Positions 3 to 13,119 of a stretch of 38,983 bases of DNA are shown here, in pieces. The notes under the pieces were generated by a model. The model was not told the DNA's origin. It searched no databases and saw only the letters and a program-made list of their open reading frames with translations. Where the stretch lies: the NCBI GenBank assembly GCA_021324075.1, contig JAJPJW010000100.1, forward strand, positions 1 through 38,983, read 5' to 3'. The stretch is from Pseudomonadota bacterium (GTDB taxonomy: Bacteria > Oederibacteriota > Muellerivitia > Muellerivitales > Muellerivitaceae). Every line of letters starts with the position of its first letter. The first letter of the stretch is position 1. The position numbers and the translations under genes are program-made.

Positions 3-569
3 GTGCTCCTTTATTCCCACGAGCGGCACGAAAGCGTCCGGGCCCATCTGCTGGAGGCCGGTTTCATGCTGACGGATTCCTTGCGGGAAGGCGTCCTGGA
101 CCCAGCCCAGGCCGAGGCGCTGGCCGATTCCGTGGAGGCCCGCCTACTCCAGGCTTCCACCCTGCCGGATATGCTGTCGGCCTTCCAGTATGGACTTGAA
201 CGCATCGGGAAAGCCGGGGATCGGCCCTCCGAAGGGAGGCATTTTATTCGAATGGAAGAAGTAAAGCGCTATGTGGACCGTCATTTTACCCAGGACCTCC
301 GGCTCAAGGACCTGGCCCGGCAGGCGGGCCTTTCCGAGCCTGCCTTCCTAAAGGGTTTCCGCCAAGCTACCGGACAGGGCTTTTCGAAATACCTCCAGGC
401 CTTAAGGCTGGGGGAGGCAAAGCGTTTGCTCCGGGCCTCCCCCCTTTCGGTCGAACGGGTGGCCCAGGAAAGCGGATTCAACTCGGCCAGCTACTTTGTT
501 CAATCTTTCAAACGGGCCACCGGCCTCACCCCCGGGGCCTTCCGTGACCAGGGCCGAGCCGGTTCATAA
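3..569 (+). CDS. AraC-family transcriptional regulator, C-terminal part (5' truncated by window)
   Basis: The reading frame is open from the first bases of the window, so the N-terminal sensor part is probably missing; the GTG at 3 is simply the first possible start. Residues about 85-184 form an AraC/XylS double helix-turn-helix: a first helical repeat around LKDLARQAGLSEPAFLKGF and a second around VERVAQESGFNSASYFVQSF, ending in the usual GLTPGAFR tail. Such proteins bind DNA and usually activate sugar-catabolic genes in response to a ligand. It lies directly upstream of, and in the same direction as, a secreted GH42 enzyme and a GH74 enzyme, so control of those genes is a reasonable inference. 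Its stop codon touches a 64-bp repeat that recurs upstream of the GH74 gene and could be its target. The inducer cannot be read from this fragment. Confidence 0.9.
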   Translation: MLLYSHERHESVRAHLLEAGFMLTDSLREGVLDPAQAEALADSVEARLLQASTLPDMLSAFQYGLERIGKAGDRPSEGRHFIRMEEVKRYVDRHFTQDLRLKDLARQAGLSEPAFLKGFRQATGQGFSKYLQALRLGEAKRLLRASPLSVERVAQESGFNSASYFVQSFKRATGLTPGAFRDQGRAGS

Positions 570-631
570 ATGATATAAATACAAATTTTGTTTTTTATAA
601 ATCTTTGAACAAAACCTCCGGGTATCTTTTT
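568..631 (+). repeat. 64-bp direct repeat, copy 1 (putative shared promoter/operator)
   Basis: An AT-rich 64-bp segment starting at the AraC stop codon is repeated exactly 2540 bp downstream with only three substitutions (582, 604 and 618 against 3122, 3144 and 3158) and no gap. It contains TATAAAT, TTTTTTATAAAT and TTGAACAAAACC. This copy sits about 200 bp before the GH42 start. Conservation of a non-coding AT-rich block ahead of two enzyme genes suggests a shared promoter or activator site; that role is inferred. Confidence 0.7.
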
Positions 632-830
632 CCTTTGCATCCCAACTTTCCATCACCCAACTTCTTGTCATTCGATGGAAAATAAACAGAAGTTAGGATA
701 GTAGCCACCAGGGAAAACTTTGGATTCCAAGGAAAATTTCTTAGCGGGATCATATGGATTTTTAGCGGCCCTCTTCGTTCTCTTCTTGTGGTCTTTCGTT
801 TAAAGTTTCAAATCACTTTGGAGGAATCCT

Positions 831-2933
831 ATGAAGTTTCCCATGAGGAAAGCGGGGAAAGTTGCTTTGAGATCGTCCATCTTCGGTCTCGTTGCGCTGG
901 CCGGTTCCATCTATGCCCTGGCCGGACCCGTGGCCACCCCGGATCGAACCTCCCAGGAAAACCCCGATTGGCCGGGCAAGGGACAGCTTTTCGTCGGCAC
1001 CAACTATCAGCCGATCGACCGCTCGCCGGAAGAAGTGAAAAAAGATATCGCCATCATGAAAGGCGCGGGCTTCAACGTGGTGCGCATGGGCGACCTTTCC
1101 TGGGACTCGTTCGAGCCGAGCGAGGGAAAGTTCACGTTCGGATGGTTCGATAAGGTCATGGACCAGATGCAGGCAAGCGGCATCCGGGTCATTTTGGACA
1201 TCCCCGGGCTGCCTGCCCCGACCTGGCTTCACCACAAGTATCCAGGCGTCAACATCGTGGCCCAGAACGGAACACTGCTGTACCCGGCCGAGCGTTACAT
1301 GGACGACACCAGTGATCCCGATTACCGGCGCCTGGTGGTCAAGCTCGCGGACGCCCTCACCAAACGATACGCGAAACATCCGGCGGTGATCGCCATCGGC
1401 TATGACAATGAAATCGGGAACAGCTACATGTCCTATTCGCCGGGGGCCAGGAAGCGTTTCATCGCATGGCTGAAGGCGAGGTATGGCAGCCTATCGGCGT
1501 TGAACAAGGCCTGGGCCACACAGCGTTGGTCACGGAGGCTGTCCAGCTTCGATGAGGTCGAGCTGCCCTATTTGGACGGCCCGGGCCCCCCGGAGCGCTA
1601 TCTCGACCTGCACAGGTTCTGGTCGGACCAGACGATCGCCACGCTGATGGACCTGGAAGCGGTCAGGAAAAAGAACATGCCCTCCATCCCCACGATCTCG
1701 AATCTTTGGGACACGGGTTGGAGGAAGGGCTTCGACTACCTCGGCTCGTTCAAGAAATATGTCTCCTACGGGGCGGAAGGCTTCTATCCCGGGGAGCCCG
1801 TGGGCGCCAGTTTTGGGGCGCTCATGACCAAAGGCGACCTCGAAACGCCCATCTGGTTCAACGAGTTCACGGCAGGAGGATCGGGCTACTATGGCACCAA
1901 GGGGCAAAGCCATATGTGGGCCTATGTGGGCCTGATGGACGGCGTGCAGGGCCTGTTGGCCTGGACCTTCAACAGCCACCGGGGCGGGGAAGAGCAGGCC
2001 CTTTTCGGGCTGGTCGACCATGATGGCAGCCCCTCCTGGAAGGTGGGTGAATTCCAACAGATCGCTTCCGAGTTCCATCGCCTTCAAAAATTCGGATTTC
2101 CACGCGTCACCAAGCCCGAAGTCGCGATCGCCTATTCCTTTGAAAGCGCGGTGGCCTCACACCCGAATGGTCCCAGCAATTCCGCCAGGGACTATTTCAA
2201 AACGCCCTATGAGGACCAGGTGCGGAACGCATTCGAGCCTTTTTTTACCGACAACATCGATACCGCGATCATCCATGTGGCCCACGCGGACCTTTCCAGG
2301 TACAAGCTGCTGGTGGTCCCGGCGGATTACCTGATGGACAAGGCCAGCGCGGACGCCATCCGCGGCTATGTGGAGCAGGGCGGGACGGCGATCATGACGG
2401 CCTACTCCGCCAAGGTGGATGAGACCAACCAGTGGTTTGACAGCCCTTTGCCGGGCCGGCTGAGCGACGTATTCGGCCTGCATACCAACGAGTTCTACGA
2501 TCGGGGGAATTCGCCGTTGGAGTTGAGCTTCAATGGACGGCCCTTGAAGACGACCATCAACCGCTATGAGGTCCTGGAGATCGATACCGCCCGGATACTG
2601 GCTAAATTCACCAATACTCCCGAACAGTCCCCCGCCATCACGGTCAACAAGTTCGGCAAGGGCAAAGCGATCTACCTGGCTGTCCCCGCCCAAGAGGCCG
2701 TACTGGGGCCCTTATTGCGGGATTGCCTTTATGCCGAGCTGGGTGTGGCGCGGGGGCCGATAACGCCCGAGGGGGTCTATGCCCGTGTGGTGGAAGGACG
2801 GACCCTCTATGTCAACACCACGGGTGAAGTGAAAAAAATCGCCATTGAGGGGGAAAAGTCCGGGCTGATCAGCGGCAAGACTTTCAAGGGAAACCTACAG
2901 CTTGATCCCTATCAGGCGGAACTCTTGCAATAG
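831..2933 (+). CDS. Secreted GH42 beta-galactosidase
   Basis: A 700-residue protein of glycoside hydrolase family 42, expected to release terminal galactose from oligosaccharides outside the cytoplasm. An N-terminal signal peptide (basic start, hydrophobic residues about 12-32) is followed by the family opening GTNYQPIDRSPEEVKKDIAIMK. The acid/base glutamate is E194 in YDNEIGN and the nucleophile is E345 in WFNEFTAGG. The catalytic barrel spans about residues 50-420, and a trimerisation-type (glutamine amidotransferase-like) domain follows at about 430-640. The start at 831 is supported by a GGAGG 6 nt upstream. Most GH42 proteins are cytoplasmic, so the export signal is notable. It sits between an AraC regulator and a GH74 xyloglucanase, which fits removal of galactose from xyloglucan side chains; arabinosides or other galactans are alternatives. 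Confidence 0.9.
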   Translation: MKFPMRKAGKVALRSSIFGLVALAGSIYALAGPVATPDRTSQENPDWPGKGQLFVGTNYQPIDRSPEEVKKDIAIMKGAGFNVVRMGDLSWDSFEPSEGKFTFGWFDKVMDQMQASGIRVILDIPGLPAPTWLHHKYPGVNIVAQNGTLLYPAERYMDDTSDPDYRRLVVKLADALTKRYAKHPAVIAIGYDNEIGNSYMSYSPGARKRFIAWLKARYGSLSALNKAWATQRWSRRLSSFDEVELPYLDGPGPPERYLDLHRFWSDQTIATLMDLEAVRKKNMPSIPTISNLWDTGWRKGFDYLGSFKKYVSYGAEGFYPGEPVGASFGALMTKGDLETPIWFNEFTAGGSGYYGTKGQSHMWAYVGLMDGVQGLLAWTFNSHRGGEEQALFGLVDHDGSPSWKVGEFQQIASEFHRLQKFGFPRVTKPEVAIAYSFESAVASHPNGPSNSARDYFKTPYEDQVRNAFEPFFTDNIDTAIIHVAHADLSRYKLLVVPADYLMDKASADAIRGYVEQGGTAIMTAYSAKVDETNQWFDSPLPGRLSDVFGLHTNEFYDRGNSPLELSFNGRPLKTTINRYEVLEIDTARILAKFTNTPEQSPAITVNKFGKGKAIYLAVPAQEAVLGPLLRDCLYAELGVARGPITPEGVYARVVEGRTLYVNTTGEVKKIAIEGEKSGLISGKTFKGNLQLDPYQAELLQ

Positions 2934-2962
2934 GAGATTCCTTATCTTTTGCGGAATTGGGA

Positions 2963-2974
2963 GGGAAGCTTCCC
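2963..2974. repeat. 12-bp perfect palindrome
   Basis: GGGAAGCTTCCC lies 30 bp after the GH42 stop codon. It has no loop and no following T-run, so it is not a convincing terminator; a protein-binding site is possible. Nothing else recognisable is seen between 2934 and the second 64-bp repeat at 3108. Confidence 0.3.
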
Positions 2975-3107
2975 GAAGCGGCGTTTGAACGTGTTAGGAG
3001 AGGTACTCGCCGCTGTAAATGTTCAGCGAGGCCGCGATTTCAGGGATTGTATTGGCCCCCCAAAACCGCTAATTCTGGCCCAGGTTTAAACCGCCGCTCA
3101 TACTCGA

Positions 3108-3171
3108 AAATGATATAAATAGAAATTTTGTTTTTTATAAATCATTGAACAAAACCTTCGGGTATCTTTTT
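3108..3171 (+). repeat. 64-bp direct repeat, copy 2 (upstream of GH74 gene)
   Basis: This is the second copy of the AT-rich block at 568-631, 61 of 64 bases identical and collinear. It ends 39 bp before the preferred GH74 start codon at 3211. The possible upstream TTG start at 3145 lies inside this repeat and would translate it, which argues for the later start and for a regulatory role of the repeat. Confidence 0.7.
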
Positions 3172-3210: not shown

Positions 3211-5646
3211 ATGCGGCCCTATCCTGGTAAAATCGATTTAACCGTTCCAATGCTTCTTCGTGGAAGGGCTTTCAGGTCCCTCCTCGTTTCGACCCTCCTT
3301 TTGTTCGGCCTCCGAGGCATCGCCGGCGCCCAGGCCTACAACTGGCAAAACGTCGTCATGATGGGCGGGGGGTTCGTGCCGGGGTTGGTCTATAGTCCCC
3401 TCCAACAAAACCTCCTTTACGCCCGCACGGATGTCGGAGGCTTCTACCGTTGGGACAACACCAACAGCCGCTGGATCCCCCTGACCGACATGTATCGGGG
3501 CAACAACTTCGGGGGAGAGAGCATCGCGCCGGACCCGGTGAATGCCAACATCGTCTACGCGGCGGCGGGCTTCTCCGGCCCGGGCACGATCCTCAGCTCC
3601 ACCAACCAGGGCAATTCGTGGACCGCCAATGCCATCCCGGTCTCCATCGCGGGCAACAACGACGGCCGGGAAGCGGGGGAACGCCTGGCGGTGGACCCGA
3701 ACCTGAACTCCAAACTTTATTTCGGCTCCCGCTGGCAGGGCCTGTGGGTGAGCGCCAACTCGGCGGCCTCCTGGTCGCAGGTGACCGCTTTCCCCGTGAA
3801 CGGCGACGCGGGCTATGGGCTCGCCTGGGTGATCTTCCCCCCGCCCACCGGTGGTTATGGACATCCCTCGGGCTCGGCCTCGGCCACGATCTACGTGGGG
3901 GTGATGGCCATGTCCTCCGGCAACAGCAATGTCTATCGCTCGACCAACGCGGGCGCAAGCTGGTCGCTCATTTCGGGTGGCCCCTCCAACATGGTCACCC
4001 CCCGCGCCAGTTTGGGAACCGACGGGAACCTTTGGATCGTTTACGACAGCGGCGGCTACGGTCCCAACGGCGTTTCGGCTGGTCAAATCTGGAAGCTCAA
4101 TACCGCCACCCTGACCTGGACCAACGTGACCCCCTCCATCGGGCCCTGCAACGGCTGTGGGGGATACAGCGGAATCAGCGTGGACGCCCAGAATTCCAAC
4201 CACGCGCTGGTCACGACCATCGACTGGTGGAGCGGGCCCGACAAGGTCTTCTCGACCTCCAATGGCGGCGGATCGTGGTCGGTCGTCGGACTGCCCGGTT
4301 CCGGCTCCTCGGTCTACAACGCCAACGGCGCCGCCTATATTTATGGATGCGGCAGCCCCTCTTCCCCGGGCGGGACGGGTTGGGCGGCCTGCGCGGCCAT
4401 CGACCCCTTCAATTCCAACAACGCCGTTTATACCTCCGGCGGCCAAGTGGCGGGCGGCGGGCTTTGGAGCAGTACCAACGTCCAGTCGTCCCCCGTCTCC
4501 TGGATCTTCACGGACTTAGGGCTGGAAGAAAGCGTGCCCCTCTACATGAACCCCGCGGCGGCGGGCGGCGTCCTGTTCTCCTGTTTGGGTGACATGGAAG
4601 GCATGCGCCACACGAACCTCAACCAATCGCCTGCCTCGGGCCAGTACTGCAACCCCCAGTACAACAACCTCAACATGCTGGAATTCGCCGAATCGAACAC
4701 CAATACCGTGGTGAGGGTGGGGAACAGCATCAACCCCTCGTCGGTGAATTCCGACGTGGCCTATTCCAGCAACAACGGCCAGACCTGGAGCCCTTGGGGC
4801 AGCGCTCCCCCGGGCTATACCACCGCGGGCCAGATGGAATCGGTGGCGGTCGCCGCCGACGGGTCCCGAGTGGTGGTGGCGCCTTTTTCCGGCTACGGGT
4901 CGCCGGCCTACGCCTCCTCCCTGGGAGGGGGTTGGACCACCTGTACCGGGCTTCCCAGCGGAGCTTCCGTGGCCGCCGACCGTTCCAGCCCTTCCACCTT
5001 CTATGCCACCGCTCCCAGCCAGTGGGTATTCGGGGGTTCGGTGACTATCTACCGCAGCACCAACGGCGGGGCCAGTTTCAGCCAGGTGAACACGATCCCG
5101 GTGAATTGGGGCGACGCCAACGGCAATGGACAGTGGGTCATTCCCCGGCCCGTTTTTGGGCAAGCGGGGGAATTCTGGGTTTCCACCTATGGTGCCCTCT
5201 ACCGCTTCACCAACGCGGGGTCCAGCGTGGCCACCATCACCGGCGTGTACGAACCCATGGGGCCGGTGGGGTTCGGCAAGGCCGCCTCCGGCCAGACCCA
5301 TCCGGCGGTCTTCCTGATCGGGACGGTCAACGGCACCTACGGGTTCTTCCGGAACGACGATGGCGTTGGAACGGCCTGGACCCAGATCAACGACGCCAAC
5401 CACCAATTCAACGGTCCCGGGTGGATCGAAGGGGATGAGAGCATCTATGGCCGCTGTTATCTGGGTGCGGGGGGGCGGGGTATTTTGTATGGGGACCTTC
5501 TATCCGGAACCCCCACCAGTACGCCCACGTCCACACCGACAAGGACCTATACGCCGACTCCAACCGGCACCCCCAGCCCCACCCGCACGAATACACCCTC
5601 GGCAACCCCGACCTGGACGGCGACAGCTTCCCTACGGCATCTTTGA
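3211..5646 (+). CDS. Secreted GH74 xyloglucan endoglucanase, N-terminal portion (frameshifted)
   Basis: Family GH74 enzymes cut the beta-1,4-glucan backbone of xyloglucan. The mature N-terminus (YNWQNVVMMGGGFVPGLVYSP) and the double seven-bladed propeller repeats with Asp-box-like STNQGNSW, STNAGASW and STNGGASF turns are typical. The two catalytic aspartates are visible: D74 in YARTDVGG and D461 in LGDMEGMRH. A signal peptide is clear from the internal ATG at 3250. I chose ATG 3211 because GAGGA precedes it closely; 3250 is equally plausible. About 811 residues are encoded before a stop inside a Pro/Thr linker. The linker then continues in the -1 frame (next entry): adding one C to the CCC run at 5630-5632 would join the two into one protein of about 1,390 residues. 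As written, the product keeps its catalytic domain but loses the C-terminal sorting-like domain. Confidence 0.87.
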   Translation: MRPYPGKIDLTVPMLLRGRAFRSLLVSTLLLFGLRGIAGAQAYNWQNVVMMGGGFVPGLVYSPLQQNLLYARTDVGGFYRWDNTNSRWIPLTDMYRGNNFGGESIAPDPVNANIVYAAAGFSGPGTILSSTNQGNSWTANAIPVSIAGNNDGREAGERLAVDPNLNSKLYFGSRWQGLWVSANSAASWSQVTAFPVNGDAGYGLAWVIFPPPTGGYGHPSGSASATIYVGVMAMSSGNSNVYRSTNAGASWSLISGGPSNMVTPRASLGTDGNLWIVYDSGGYGPNGVSAGQIWKLNTATLTWTNVTPSIGPCNGCGGYSGISVDAQNSNHALVTTIDWWSGPDKVFSTSNGGGSWSVVGLPGSGSSVYNANGAAYIYGCGSPSSPGGTGWAACAAIDPFNSNNAVYTSGGQVAGGGLWSSTNVQSSPVSWIFTDLGLEESVPLYMNPAAAGGVLFSCLGDMEGMRHTNLNQSPASGQYCNPQYNNLNMLEFAESNTNTVVRVGNSINPSSVNSDVAYSSNNGQTWSPWGSAPPGYTTAGQMESVAVAADGSRVVVAPFSGYGSPAYASSLGGGWTTCTGLPSGASVAADRSSPSTFYATAPSQWVFGGSVTIYRSTNGGASFSQVNTIPVNWGDANGNGQWVIPRPVFGQAGEFWVSTYGALYRFTNAGSSVATITGVYEPMGPVGFGKAASGQTHPAVFLIGTVNGTYGFFRNDDGVGTAWTQINDANHQFNGPGWIEGDESIYGRCYLGAGGRGILYGDLLSGTPTSTPTSTPTRTYTPTPTGTPSPTRTNTPSATPTWTATASLRHL

Positions 5647-7376
5647 CAAATAGCCCCACCTTGACAGCAACCCGCACCACCACTTCCACGGCAACTTTTA
5701 CGACATCGGCCACTCGCACGAACACACCGACGAATACGGCCACTTCCACCACCACCAGCACCGCTTCCAGCACGCCTTCCGCGACAGCGAGTTCCACGGC
5801 AAGCCGGACCGCTTCGGCTACTCCCACCAATACCTTGATGAATACCGCCACCAATACGGCTACTTCCACCCCCACTAATACCTTAGCCAACACGGCAACC
5901 CAAACGGCTACTGGAACCGCGACCAGTACCCCCACGGCGACGTCTAGTCGTACGGCCACCTCTACGGCAACTTATTCGGCGACTTCCACCCCAACCAATA
6001 CCTTGGCCAATACAGCCACGAATAGCCCCACCGCAACGCCGACGAATACCCTGGCAAACACGGCCACCAATACGCCTACCGCGACCAGTACTAACACTTT
6101 AGTCAATACCGCCACTCATACTTCAACGGCCACTCCGTCAAGTACGTCTACCAGCACCTTGTCTTCTACCGCCACGGCTACGGTGACTCACACGACAACA
6201 TCCACTCCCACGAACACCTTGGCGAACACGGCGACGAACAGCCCAACGGCAACACCAACGAGTACTTTCGCCAATACCGCCACTAATAGTCCAACGGCGA
6301 CTTCGTCCAGTACTTCCACTAACACCACGACGAATACGACAAGCTCCACCCCAACCCACACGGCTACCTCCAGCGCCACAACGACGCCCACTAATACTTT
6401 GGCCAACACCGTGACGAATACGGCCACTTTGACCGCCACCTCAACGCCCACGAAGACACCAACCTTCACTGCCACCAATAGCGCCACGTCAACCACTACC
6501 TCGACCGCAACCTTGACCCCCACCGTGACTTTGACTTCTACTCCCACGGTTGTGGTAGTACTAGCTTCACAAGGATCCAACCCACCAGGAAATTCCATCC
6601 AAATCCAGGGCTCAGCGGTTACGGTTCAGCAAATTGAGATTACCAACCCGGGAAACAATGACGTGACGTTGACCGGTTTGACCCTTTCCGAGGCCGGAAA
6701 TTCCGCCACAGGAATTACGAGTGTTTCCTTGGTTCAGAATGGAGCGGTGGTGACCACGGCTGATTTCACGGGATCCACGGCCACCTTTAACCTGAATGGA
6801 ATCGTGGGACCCAATAATGGGACATCGACCTACCAAGTGGTGGCAACCTTCTCTTCAAGCGCTACGACGGGGAATTACCAATTCAGCATCACCGCCGGCA
6901 CGGGCACCAATGGTCAGGCGGTGCAATTCGGCAACCTGCCGGTGCAGGGGGCCATTGTTCAAATTGTCTCGGCCACGGCCACTTGGACTTCCACGGAAAC
7001 CGCAACCCTGACCCCCAGTTCCACGCCGACAGTCCAAGCGACCTTGACGCCTACGTCTACAGCTACAAACGCCTTCTCCGCGACTTCCACCCCGGCAGGG
7101 AACCAGGACGTGGTGGTTTATCCCAACCCGGTGACGGGCCCGACCGTGAATGTTCTTTCACCGGCCTATTCAGGCGTTTCCAATGTTGAGGTGGAACTGT
7201 TTACGACGGCATTCCGCAGGGTTCAAGACGAGGTCTTCTCCGATATACACTCTGGCACAGCCGTGAAGGTCAACTTGACGGATGAGTGGGGACATCCCCT
7301 AGCGGATGGCCTGTACTATGTGGTGGTCATCGTTGATGGCAAACGTTCCATCGGAAAACTTCTGGTCCTTCGATAA
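5643..7376 (+). CDS. C-terminal half of the GH74 protein: Thr-rich linker, Ig-like domain and FlgD/T9SS-like tail
   Basis: This 577-codon frame begins at a TTG with no ribosome binding site and continues the Thr/Pro linker of the preceding frame, so it is almost certainly the rest of the same gene. Residues 1-305 are low-complexity Thr/Asn/Ser/Ala sequence with a recurring unit of roughly 16-18 residues (TPTNTLANTATNSPTA). An Ig-like beta-sandwich follows at about 308-440, then a second short Thr-rich linker. The last 90 residues run from VVVYPNPVTGP to GLYYVVVIVDGKRSIGKLLV and resemble FlgD-Ig or type IX secretion C-terminal domains. The tail closely parallels that of the NHL protein ending at 27309. 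Linkers of this kind usually hold catalytic domains away from the cell or attach them to the surface. Whether it is translated alone, by ribosomal frameshift, or not at all cannot be told here. Confidence 0.75.
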   Translation: MTNSPTLTATRTTTSTATFTTSATRTNTPTNTATSTTTSTASSTPSATASSTASRTASATPTNTLMNTATNTATSTPTNTLANTATQTATGTATSTPTATSSRTATSTATYSATSTPTNTLANTATNSPTATPTNTLANTATNTPTATSTNTLVNTATHTSTATPSSTSTSTLSSTATATVTHTTTSTPTNTLANTATNSPTATPTSTFANTATNSPTATSSSTSTNTTTNTTSSTPTHTATSSATTTPTNTLANTVTNTATLTATSTPTKTPTFTATNSATSTTTSTATLTPTVTLTSTPTVVVVLASQGSNPPGNSIQIQGSAVTVQQIEITNPGNNDVTLTGLTLSEAGNSATGITSVSLVQNGAVVTTADFTGSTATFNLNGIVGPNNGTSTYQVVATFSSSATTGNYQFSITAGTGTNGQAVQFGNLPVQGAIVQIVSATATWTSTETATLTPSSTPTVQATLTPTSTATNAFSATSTPAGNQDVVVYPNPVTGPTVNVLSPAYSGVSNVEVELFTTAFRRVQDEVFSDIHSGTAVKVNLTDEWGHPLADGLYYVVVIVDGKRSIGKLLVLR

Positions 7377-9121: not shown

Positions 9122-10273
9122 ATGGCTGAAGTTGCTGTTAATAGGGAAGTCCTGCAATGGGTGTTAGACCGCTCTGGTCTTACCTCCAAAAAGCTTGAGA
9201 ATAAATTCCCCAAAATTCCAGCTTGGTTAAAGGGCGAAAGCCAGCCTTCCCTACCTCAATTGGAAAAATTGGCTCATGCGGTTCATGCCCCCCTAGGGTA
9301 TATGTTCCTCCAAAAACCCCTTCATGAAACTTTGCCAATCCCTCATTTTCGTACTGTGGCGGATGAGGCCCCCAATAAATTCACTCCTGATCTTCTGGAA
9401 ACGGTCCAAATGATGCAACGAAGGCAAGCTTGGTTGCGTGATTGGATAGTTGACCAAGGTCAGGATAAACAACCATTTGTCAAATCGACAGAACTGAAAG
9501 AAACCCCGCTGGTAGTGGCGGGCCGGATAAGGAAAGTTTTGGGGTTTAATTTGGATTGGGCTTCCCATGAGGGAACTTGGACTGCCGCCTTAGATGTCTT
9601 GCGAAATGCCATGGAAACGATTGGAATTCTTGTGGTCACTAATGGCATCGTCGGCAACAACACCCATCGAAAACTCGATCCGAATGAATTTCGTGGTTTT
9701 GTCCTAGTGGATGATTTTGCCCCCCTTGTATTCGTCAATGGAACCGATGGGAAAGCGGCCCAAATGTTCACGCTCGCCCATGAATTAGCCCATATTTTTT
9801 ATGGAAGCAGCGCGGCATTTGATCTACGGGAAATGCAGCCTGCCAATGATCCAACTGAGCAAGCCTGTAACCGTGTGGCGGCTGAATTCCTCGTCCCTGA
9901 GAGTGAAATCCGAAGTCTATGGCTGTCCGTGCGGGGAAATGAAGAGCCGTTTCAGGATTTAGCGAAGAAATTCAAAGTTAGCTCGATTGTTGCCGCCCGT
10001 AGGGCGCTGGATTTGAATTTGATTTCCAAAACAAAATTTTTTGAATTCTATGAAGAGTACCAAAAAGACGAAAGGCGCAAAAAAGACAATGCGCCAGGCG
10101 GGGGGGATTTTTACGCGAACCAAAATTTTAGGATAGGACGGACATTCGCTTACGCTGTCGTTAGGGCTGTCAGAGAGGGAAAGCTGCTATATTCTGAGGC
10201 TTACCACCTTACAGGTCTTTATGGGAAAGCCTTTGGAAAATACGCCGATTCGATCAAGATCGGCGGCGCTTAA
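9122..10273 (+). CDS. XRE-like/ImmA-IrrE metallopeptidase, putative antitoxin of a TA pair
   Basis: A 383-residue protein with an N-terminal helical, XRE-like segment (about residues 8-60: VLDRSGLTSKKLENKFPKIP) and a C-terminal ImmA/IrrE (COG2856) zinc-peptidase domain. The zinc motif is H220-E-L-A-H224 (HELAH), followed by TEQACNRVAAEFLVP, in which E246 is a likely third ligand. COG2856 proteins with N-terminal HTH domains act as regulators or antitoxins and often precede a PIN-type toxin. The stop codon overlaps the start of the next gene by one base (TAATG), so the two are translationally coupled. Codon use is visibly more AT-rich than in the flanking genes, consistent with acquisition by transfer. 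No strong ribosome binding site is seen (GGAG lies 8 nt upstream in GTGGAGTTTTCCA). Confidence 0.85.
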   Translation: MAEVAVNREVLQWVLDRSGLTSKKLENKFPKIPAWLKGESQPSLPQLEKLAHAVHAPLGYMFLQKPLHETLPIPHFRTVADEAPNKFTPDLLETVQMMQRRQAWLRDWIVDQGQDKQPFVKSTELKETPLVVAGRIRKVLGFNLDWASHEGTWTAALDVLRNAMETIGILVVTNGIVGNNTHRKLDPNEFRGFVLVDDFAPLVFVNGTDGKAAQMFTLAHELAHIFYGSSAAFDLREMQPANDPTEQACNRVAAEFLVPESEIRSLWLSVRGNEEPFQDLAKKFKVSSIVAARRALDLNLISKTKFFEFYEEYQKDERRKKDNAPGGGDFYANQNFRIGRTFAYAVVRAVREGKLLYSEAYHLTGLYGKAFGKYADSIKIGGA

Positions 10274-10773
10274 TGACCAATGGGCGGATTTACGCGCTGG
10301 ATGCAAATGTATTCATTGAAGCGGCTCGCCGGTATTATGCGTTCGACTTGGTTCCCATATTCTGGCAAACTTTGGAAAACCTAGCTCAAAATAACCACGT
10401 AAAAAGTATTGACCGCATTCAAACCGAGTTGCTTCGCGGCCACGACGAATTGTCAAGATGGGTAACTCCCCACTTTGGGAACGCGTTTGAATCAACAAAT
10501 GAGCCTCAAATACTTCAACAATACGGAAATGTCATGAACTGGGTCCAAAGCCAAGATCAATTCCTCGATTATGCAAAATCCGATTTTGCGGCTGGTGCGG
10601 ATGGCTGGTTGATTGCGTATGCGATTGTTAATAATTACGTTGTGGTTACCCACGAAGTATATAACCCTACCATTAAGAACAAAGTTCCAATCCCAAACGT
10701 ATGTCGAAACTTCAATGTCCAGAATGTTGATACGTTTGAAATGTTAAGAGCGCTTTCCATTCGATTTAATTAG
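10273..10773 (+). CDS. PIN-like DUF4411-type ribonuclease, putative toxin
   Basis: A 166-residue protein that opens with YALDANVFIEAARRYY. The first acidic residue of a PIN-type active site is D10, with E52 (TELLRG) and D110 (GADGWLIAYA) in the expected order, followed by VVVTHEVYNP. This is the pattern of the DUF4411 group, predicted metal-dependent RNases partnered with ImmA/IrrE-HTH proteins. It starts on the last base of the upstream gene's stop codon, which implies coupled translation and matched amounts of the two proteins. Function as the toxin is inferred from family and gene order. The complete acidic triad suggests that it is intact. The low GC content matches its partner. Confidence 0.85.
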   Translation: MTNGRIYALDANVFIEAARRYYAFDLVPIFWQTLENLAQNNHVKSIDRIQTELLRGHDELSRWVTPHFGNAFESTNEPQILQQYGNVMNWVQSQDQFLDYAKSDFAAGADGWLIAYAIVNNYVVVTHEVYNPTIKNKVPIPNVCRNFNVQNVDTFEMLRALSIRFN

Positions 10774-10843
10774 TCCATCAAAATTCTGATAAACGAGAGA
10801 GGAAATTGGCCGAATTTTTATAAGATGAACAGGATGGTGCGCC

Positions 10844-11659
10844 GTGTCGGTACAAGAAGAAGTTTTGTTTCTGTTGAAGCATTACTTGAAAGTCATAGAT
10901 GCGAGCAAAGGCCCAAACGCAACCGTTCGTCTCAAAAGGGCGCAGGGGCTTATAGCGAAATGTCTGGATCATTGTGCTTCGACGGAATACCTTTTGCGCG
11001 GTACTCATCTTCCCGAGATAAATTTCAACTTTAAAGATTTTGGCACTGTCTTTGTAACCGCAAGAGCCGCCCTAGAAAGCCTTCTTACTTTTGGGTATGT
11101 ATTTTATCATCCGGCAACCGACGATGAATTTGAATACAAGTATCTTGCTTGGGTAATGTCCGGTCTAATTGACCGCCAAGAATTTTTTTCGGAAGAAAAC
11201 CTTATCGAAGCGAATAAGGTGAAAGTGGCCGCTGAAAAAAAGGAAATACAAGAAATGAAAGCGGCTCTGAATTCCAATCAAAGCTTTCTAAAACTAACAG
11301 AGAAGCAGAAAAATAGGGTGATGGAAGGGGACTGGCGTTTCGATGGTTGGACGACAATTGGGATCAATATAGGTTTTAATGAAAACCGGATCAGGACAAT
11401 TTACAGCTTTCTTTGCGGTTACGCGCATTCCGGCGGATTAAGCGGCCTTCAATATAACCATCTTGTAACGTTAGCGGATGACCCACAACAGGGGGATTTC
11501 ATTGATCCTCTGTTAGCCGTTATTTTGGCAAACATGATAAATATGTTTTGCGCGTTGTTTCCCAAAAGCAAAGAAACGCACGAGTCGGACCGACAGGCAG
11601 TTGAATTGGTATATATGTTTTTAAAATTCGGACAGGAGCCTTTTGAGGTTTTTGAATAA
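10844..11659 (+). CDS. Hypothetical protein, helical (DUF5677/HEPN-like resemblance)
   Basis: A 271-residue, mainly helical, soluble protein starting at GTG 10844, with AGGATG about 9 nt upstream. Residues about 30-110 include STEYLLRGTHLPEINF and AARAALESLLTFGYVF. A charged Lys/Glu segment follows at about 125-155, and a C-terminal part contains RTIYSFLCGYAHSGGLSGLQ. The tyrosine/histidine-rich AHSGGLS segment recalls DUF5677 and other HEPN-like proteins found near defence genes, but I cannot confirm the family. It follows the ImmA/PIN pair by 70 bp and shares its low GC content, so it probably belongs to the same acquired island. It could be a third component or an independent cargo gene. 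Confidence 0.6.
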   Translation: MSVQEEVLFLLKHYLKVIDASKGPNATVRLKRAQGLIAKCLDHCASTEYLLRGTHLPEINFNFKDFGTVFVTARAALESLLTFGYVFYHPATDDEFEYKYLAWVMSGLIDRQEFFSEENLIEANKVKVAAEKKEIQEMKAALNSNQSFLKLTEKQKNRVMEGDWRFDGWTTIGINIGFNENRIRTIYSFLCGYAHSGGLSGLQYNHLVTLADDPQQGDFIDPLLAVILANMINMFCALFPKSKETHESDRQAVELVYMFLKFGQEPFEVFE

Positions 11660-11839
11660 AATAGGATAAGCTTGTTTTGTCTCTCAATTACCCTCTAAAA
11701 ATATTTAACCATAACAAACGTCTGTTTCAAAAAACATGATCATTCCCACCCGTTTTTTCATTCAGCACTTTCCCGCCAAATAGGGCGAGAAATGCCCTGG
11801 CCTTTTTAATTATCACAATCTACAGATGGTTGCGGGTTG

Positions 11840-11851
11840 CCCAAATTTGGG
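11840..11851. repeat. 12-bp palindrome in the integrase upstream region
   Basis: CCCAAATTTGGG is a perfect palindrome 176 bp before the integrase start, inside an AT-rich gap (11660-12027) that otherwise holds only the terminator below. An operator or a recombinase arm site is possible. Confidence 0.3.
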
Positions 11852-11914
11852 TGACCTTATAAGGACCTTTTGAAAACACCCAGAGAACTCTAGGTTTTTC
11901 TAAAAAGGTCTTCG

Positions 11915-11935
11915 CGCTAAGAAGTTAGCGTTTTT
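11915..11935 (+). terminator. Rho-independent terminator-like hairpin
   Basis: CGCTAA and TTAGCG form a 6-bp stem around the tetraloop GAAG, followed directly by TTTTTC. It lies 256 bp after the hypothetical gene and 93 bp before the integrase start, and would insulate the recombinase from upstream transcription. Confidence 0.6.
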
Positions 11936-12027
11936 CAAAACCGGATCGTTTGTAAGTTAAGAGACGTTGTTTTGAAATATTCGGTGCCCCTGCTATGATT
12001 AACTCGCTGGGGACATTAGGAGGAAGC

Positions 12028-13119
12028 ATGGCTAAACCTAATGTTCATGGATTGCCGCAACATCTTCGCAAGGATGGGGCGGGTTATTTCCTGGATTATT
12101 TCGTCCGGGAAGATGGATTGAGGAGAAGGAAAAGGGTTCGTTTGGGAAATATCCCCTTGGCCCAGGCCAAGCGCATTTTGGCCCAGAGCATGGGGGATAT
12201 GGCCGAGGAGAAGTATTTGGCCCCCGACAAACCGCAGGTAGGTTTTTTCGCGGCGGCGGACGCTTTCCTGGCCTATTCCAAGGCTAGGAAGAAAAGCCAC
12301 GAGAGGGATATCTACCGGGTGCAGTTGTTCAAGGACTTTTTCGGCGACCGTCCCTTGGACAGCTTGAGCCCTGATTTGGTGGAAGCCTTCCTGGTTCACC
12401 GGCGGGAAAAGGGCCAGTTGTCCCATCCCGGCAGGCCGGTGGCCGAGGGGACCTTGAACCTGGATATCGCCATCCTGAAGGCCCTGGTCAGCCGGGCGGT
12501 GTTGAACCGCATGATCGACCGGGACCCGATCCGGGGCGTGAAGAAGTTCAAGGCGAACTTCCGGAACCGCACCCTGGAGCCCGAGGAATACCGAAGGCTC
12601 CTGGAGAAGTGTTCCAGCCACCTCAAGCCCATCGTTCAGCTGGCTTATTTGACCGCGATGCGTTGCGGTGAAATCCTGAAGTTGCGTTGGGAGCAGGTGG
12701 ACTTCAAGAACCGGGTGATCTACCTGGAAGCCGCGGACACCAAGACCCAGGAAAAAAGGGAAGTGCCGCTGACGGAGGAGCTTTTAGACCTCTTGAAGCA
12801 GGTTCCCCGAACCCTTGGAAGTCCCTATGTCTTCACCTGGAAGGGTCAGACCATGGGGACCATCAAGACCGCCTTCAAAAGGGCGTGCCGGCAGGCCGGG
12901 GTTTTGGATTTTCGTTTCCATGACCTCAGGCATTGCGCGGTGACGAACTTGAGGAAGGCGGGCGTGAGCGATTCGGTCATCATGTCGATTTCGGGCCACA
13001 AGACCCACGCGGTGTTTCGCAAGTACGATCGTGTGGACCGAGAGGACCGCTTGGCGGCCTTGGAGAAGGCGAAGGCCCTCAATGACACGAATATGACACG
13101 GACCGCAAAAGGCAAGTGA
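12028..13119 (+). CDS. Tyrosine recombinase (phage-type integrase)
   Basis: A 363-residue site-specific recombinase. I start it at ATG 12028 because a strong AGGAGG lies 6 nt upstream; the ATG at 11995 has no such site. An N-terminal Arm-type DNA-binding part (residues 1-65) with many basic residues is followed by a core-binding SAM-like domain (about 70-170) and the catalytic domain. All six active-site residues are visible: R212 (TAMRCGEILKLRW), K239, H298 and R301 (HDLRH), H324 (SGHKTH) and nucleophile Y333 (FRKYD). The enzyme therefore looks functional. It ends 88 bp before a tRNA 3'-half sequence at 13207-13251, the usual arrangement for an integrase that uses a tRNA gene as target. GC content is higher than in the cargo genes just upstream. 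Confidence 0.93.
   Translation: MAKPNVHGLPQHLRKDGAGYFLDYFVREDGLRRRKRVRLGNIPLAQAKRILAQSMGDMAEEKYLAPDKPQVGFFAAADAFLAYSKARKKSHERDIYRVQLFKDFFGDRPLDSLSPDLVEAFLVHRREKGQLSHPGRPVAEGTLNLDIAILKALVSRAVLNRMIDRDPIRGVKKFKANFRNRTLEPEEYRRLLEKCSSHLKPIVQLAYLTAMRCGEILKLRWEQVDFKNRVIYLEAADTKTQEKREVPLTEELLDLLKQVPRTLGSPYVFTWKGQTMGTIKTAFKRACRQAGVLDFRFHDLRHCAVTNLRKAGVSDSVIMSISGHKTHAVFRKYDRVDREDRLAALEKAKALNDTNMTRTAKGK

Follow-up and report, generated by a model that had tools for sequence, protein, structure and literature searches.

A duplicated 64-bp AT-rich block precedes adjacent GH42 and GH74 genes beside an AraC-type regulator gene and may place both under shared control

The window analysed (38,983 nucleotides) was an entire contig (C73) of the assembly GCA_021324075.1, and its first genes are the end of an AraC-type regulator gene cut at the contig start (its N-terminal part lies beyond the contig end), a GH42 β-galactosidase gene and a GH74 xyloglucanase gene (Table 1). 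The GH42 protein carried an apparent N-terminal signal peptide (by inspection). The assignment of the GH74 protein was confirmed by solved structures of GH74 xyloglucanases, and its most likely start codon (ATG) was preceded by GAGGAA. Both enzymes probably digest the plant polymer xyloglucan, a sensible common substrate. The “hemicellulose system” of the initial annotation is a fair description; its “two polysaccharidase genes” applied to the GH74 xyloglucanase but not to GH42, which targets galactosyl side chains. Paralogues of the AraC-type gene in the family encoded proteins of about 600 aa carrying the AraC helix-turn-helix (HTH) domain at the C terminus (36-40% identical), and at least one of these relatives was located near a GH2 glycosidase gene.

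Table 1. Features at the beginning of the window (positions are those of the window).
Feature	Position	Strand	Details
3' end of AraC-type regulator gene	3-569	+	188 aa seen; Pfam HTH_18 81 bits, HTH_AraC 70 bits
Block copy 1	568-631	+	AT-rich, non-coding, between the AraC-type gene and the GH42 gene
Leader/upstream region of GH42	632-830	+	199 bp; nothing equivalent behind copy 2; GGAGG before the ATG
GH42 β-galactosidase gene	831-2933	+	700 aa; Pfam Glyco_hydro_42 224 bits; PDB GH42 relatives E 4e-66
Decayed AraC-family HTH remnant	2942-3053	-	Second HTH half over two frames; six-frame reading and Pfam HTH_AraC
Block copy 2	3108-3171	+	3 substitutions with respect to copy 1 (block positions 15, 37 and 51)
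GH74 xyloglucanase catalytic domain and start of Thr/Pro-rich linker	3211-5646	+	PDB GH74 relatives E 5e-132

Orthologues of GH74 (78-79% identical) were present in two family members (G005 and G004), both lacking the block upstream. The orthologue in G005 was a single frame of 1223 aa. In the window, the GH74 frame stopped within the Thr/Pro-rich linker, and the remainder of the linker, together with a C-terminal sorting-like domain, was found in another frame (5643-7376); this break (5600-7376 region) reflects either a true frameshift mutation or an error in sequencing the repeat. Further along the window, a small mobile-island-like group (9122-13119) encoded an ImmA/IrrE-like peptidase M78 protein (with weak PADLOC matches to capP and RmrA), a DUF4411 protein, a DUF5677-like protein and a tyrosine integrase.

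The two block copies were identical at 61 of 64 positions, ungapped and on the same strand; no match to the 30-base core of the block was expected in shuffled windows, which excludes a chance match. Identity fell to 11/30 in the left flank and 4/30 in the right flank, so the edges were abrupt, and the left edge of copy 1 was located inside the stop codon of the AraC-type gene (TAA, 567-569), the first two bases of the copy belonging to this codon. Local GC content was 30-40% around copy 1 and 18-50% around copy 2, compared with about 57% in the genome sample. Copy 1 ended 199 bp before the GH42 start codon; copy 2 began 174 bp past the GH42 stop codon and ended 39 bp short of the most likely GH74 start. 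The duplication, its sharp edges and its placement before the two hydrolase genes with an AraC-type gene immediately upstream, all proposed in the initial annotation, were thus borne out.

A frameshifted remnant of an AraC-type gene, overlooked in that annotation, was observed between GH42 and copy 2. Its HTH_AraC score was just above the cut-off (26.7 vs. 26.6 bits, E 6e-6); an extension to 3102, toward the edge of copy 2, was rejected because the profile score gained nothing. The segment between the blocks therefore comprised GH42 and the remains of a broken regulator gene; the two copies were direct repeats bracketing exactly this segment.

A search of the entire assembly (3.57 Mb; completeness 98%) with an 81-bp query gave exactly two copies of the block, 2540 bp apart, and two sub-motifs of the block, allowing up to 3 mismatches, both matched only these same two sites. 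There was no third copy before other hydrolase genes and no convincing copy in 191 other genomes (short and weak AT-rich alignments, E about 1e-4 to 1e-2, were discounted); viral contigs, plasmids and phages gave no match. The block is a local pair specific to the present genome, neither a dispersed element nor a wide regulon signature. The “regulon signature” proposed earlier survives only trivially, as a regulon of two genes; as a genome-wide reading it was rejected, since the block occurs just twice. A small mobile promoter, or another dispersed mobile repeat, was also suggested: the block is short, non-coding and located before non-homologous genes, as in the proposal of Matus-Garcia et al. 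(2012), in the form in which it is cited in PMC8049555. That origin is very improbable with exactly two copies 2.5 kb apart, no unlinked copies in the genome and none clear in relatives or mobile elements, and this part of the annotation was not supported. What the contig holds has the form of a local duplication of an upstream module: two near-identical non-coding copies on one strand, each upstream of a gene.

Recognizable signals were sought inside the block. The promoter search covered the sigma-70 and sigma-54 types: the best sigma-70 match in or at the block (8/12) was no better than background, and no sigma-54 core was found. A de novo promoter motif derived from intergenic regions of the present genome was uninformative. 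Internal 7-bp inverted and 7-bp direct repeats (22-bp spacing) looked like activator sites; as AraC-type half-sites they were discarded, their presence being expected by chance (48% of shuffles contained the inverted and 31% the direct repeats). Of the “recently copied promoter/operator module” of the initial annotation, there remains a copied segment upstream of two linked hydrolase genes beside an AraC-type gene, but no recognizable promoter inside it.

The block might, unlikely as it seems, terminate transcription of the AraC-type and GH42 genes that precede it, or form a 3' element of their mRNAs. Copy 1 starts within the AraC stop codon, and in both copies ACC-UNCG-GGU is followed by a terminal ATCTTTTT, with one of the substitutions altering the variable loop base alone. 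However, this stem is just 3 bp, no intrinsic terminator (a GC-rich stem of 5 bp or more with a T run behind it) was called in the block, there was no Rfam match, folding energies were not better than those of shuffles (z -0.25 and -0.93), and copy 2 lies well past the GH42 stop codon.

The present genome was also scanned for local non-coding pairs (1.23 Mb, 574 intergenic regions), and six same-strand pairs were found. Apart from the block pair itself, most were set aside as members of an inverted-repeat family, as a Thr/Pro-repeat coding stretch or as pairs without assignment. A dispersed REP-like inverted repeat family (core CACCGCCAAGACGCCAAG...CTTGGCGTCTTGGCGGTG) was observed in contigs C3, C30 and C35 (L091, L118 and L123), and a 71-bp non-coding pair in L106 (12951-13021 and 16423-16493, 79% identical) had a strong terminator-like hairpin after each copy, with no tRNA call. 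One pair, on contig C28 (L116; 5763-5888 and 10380-10506, 126 bp, 86% identical), occurred exactly twice in the genome and was absent from 11 relatives, and its copies preceded two chemotaxis operons, one of the cheX/cheA type and the other a cheW operon. Each copy contained a sigma-54 -24/-12 core (TGGCA-N6-TTGC, at 5864-5878 and 10481-10495), conserved while the spacer bases differed; only 18 cores of this type were found in 2.38 Mb of strand, and the genome encodes RpoN. This pair demonstrates that, in the present genome, upstream modules do get copied locally to sites in front of functionally linked genes; it is one case and not a rate. A broader generalization, rather doubtful at present, would be that short upstream control segments are copied time and again across a few kb in this lineage, so that neighbours of one pathway (the xyloglucan genes here, and the chemotaxis genes with their sigma-54 cores) come under one control, the AT-rich block being of a promoter/operator type outside the standard consensus motifs.

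No close homologue of GH42 was found in relatives from the genus and the family. The nearest homologues (62-67% identity) were from Acidobacteria, Rhizomicrobium and Duganella; the order AraC then GH42 recurred in Duganella, and a GH74-like gene adjoined GH42 in Rhizomicrobium. No donor GH42 loci carrying the block were found. The codon usage of GH42 was typical of the present genome, and its acquisition, if any, need not be recent.

We consider it about an even bet (probability roughly 0.5) that one recent local duplication equipped GH42 and GH74 with one and the same regulatory segment upstream. A single event would have copied the 64-bp AT-rich segment, after which the same cis-regulatory DNA would precede both genes. 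The block would most likely hold a site for activator binding, a promoter or both, through which the neighbouring AraC-type regulator would act, and the removal of galactosyl side chains and the cleavage of the xyloglucan backbone would thereby be induced together. The likely history would be an older order of AraC-type gene, block, 39 bp and GH74, with the segment of GH42 and AraC remnant later placed between two block copies. Binding of a regulator by the block, the encoding of that regulator by the AraC-type gene and the identity of the inducer are all presumptive. Several observations argue for this shared control: each copy lies, in coding-strand orientation, in front of a gene for a secreted hydrolase, and the two enzymes share one substrate; an AraC-type gene is immediately upstream; the gene neighbourhoods of Duganella and Rhizomicrobium are partly similar; and there is precedent in the xyloglucan genes of Ruminiclostridium cellulolyticum (PMC4780118), in the two-copy pair of C28 and in promoter capture (PMC11111574). 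Against it count the absence of promoters of the sigma-70 and sigma-54 types within or next to the block, the unequal distances from block to start codon, the chance-expected internal repeats, the lack of a third copy before other hydrolase genes, the three substitutions, too few to reveal constraint, and the position of the N-terminal part of the AraC-type protein off the contig.

The main and serious rival shares this history, and differs solely in the function of the block: the direct repeat may be the neutral footprint of the rearrangement that brought the GH42 segment between the AraC-type gene and GH74, with no regulatory role. Staggered-break fill-in, template switching and integration by recombination at the block were considered as mechanisms. 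We regard such a scar as a real possibility, if somewhat short of an even chance. It accords with repeats that bracket exactly the inter-block segment, with a GH42 foreign to genus and family, with abrupt edges (one of them in a stop codon), with a block lacking a promoter signature, and with the compact arrangement of AraC-type gene, block and GH74 that is left when one unit is dropped. On the other hand, 64 bp would make a long target duplication, and the ends of the segment showed neither a transposase nor terminal inverted repeats. The genome-typical codon usage makes the acquisition of GH42 not obviously recent, in contrast to the near identity of the two block copies.

If the block does confer shared control, the locus would be a clean example of a newly placed gene gaining common regulation with a resident pathway neighbour via a very short copied upstream segment. 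The pair on C28 would then provide another case from this genome, independent of the first and with a recognizable promoter type, and the two would be small testable instances of co-regulation assembled outside operons.

Promoter capture by duplication is documented (PMC11111574), and the present finding would be an instance of this known kind: non-coding upstream DNA was duplicated locally, and a second gene, without homologue in close relatives, would have gained it. In contrast to that system, the copied unit here is just 64 bp and its promoter activity is putative. With the mobile promoters proposed by Matus-Garcia et al. (2012), as far as they are described in the citing work (short non-coding DNA upstream of non-homologous genes), the block shares a near-identical short sequence before unrelated genes, but it differs in consisting of two linked copies with no dispersal inside or between genomes. 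The closest functional parallel was found in R. cellulolyticum, where GH74, GH42 and an AraC-like regulator serve xyloglucan use, the GH42 enzyme strips galactosyl side chains, and the regulator is encoded within the cluster of the GH42 gene (PMC4780118). The two systems have in common a GH74 xyloglucanase, a GH42 β-galactosidase and an AraC-like regulator. The set of R. cellulolyticum also has a sensor kinase and an ABC transporter, its GH42 is cytoplasmic and its GH74 is cellulosomal and encoded elsewhere (PMC4780118), whereas the GH42 and GH74 genes described here are adjacent and both products appear to be secreted. It is plausible, by analogy with this experimental precedent, that the AraC-type regulator, the secreted GH42 and GH74 together form a xyloglucan set.
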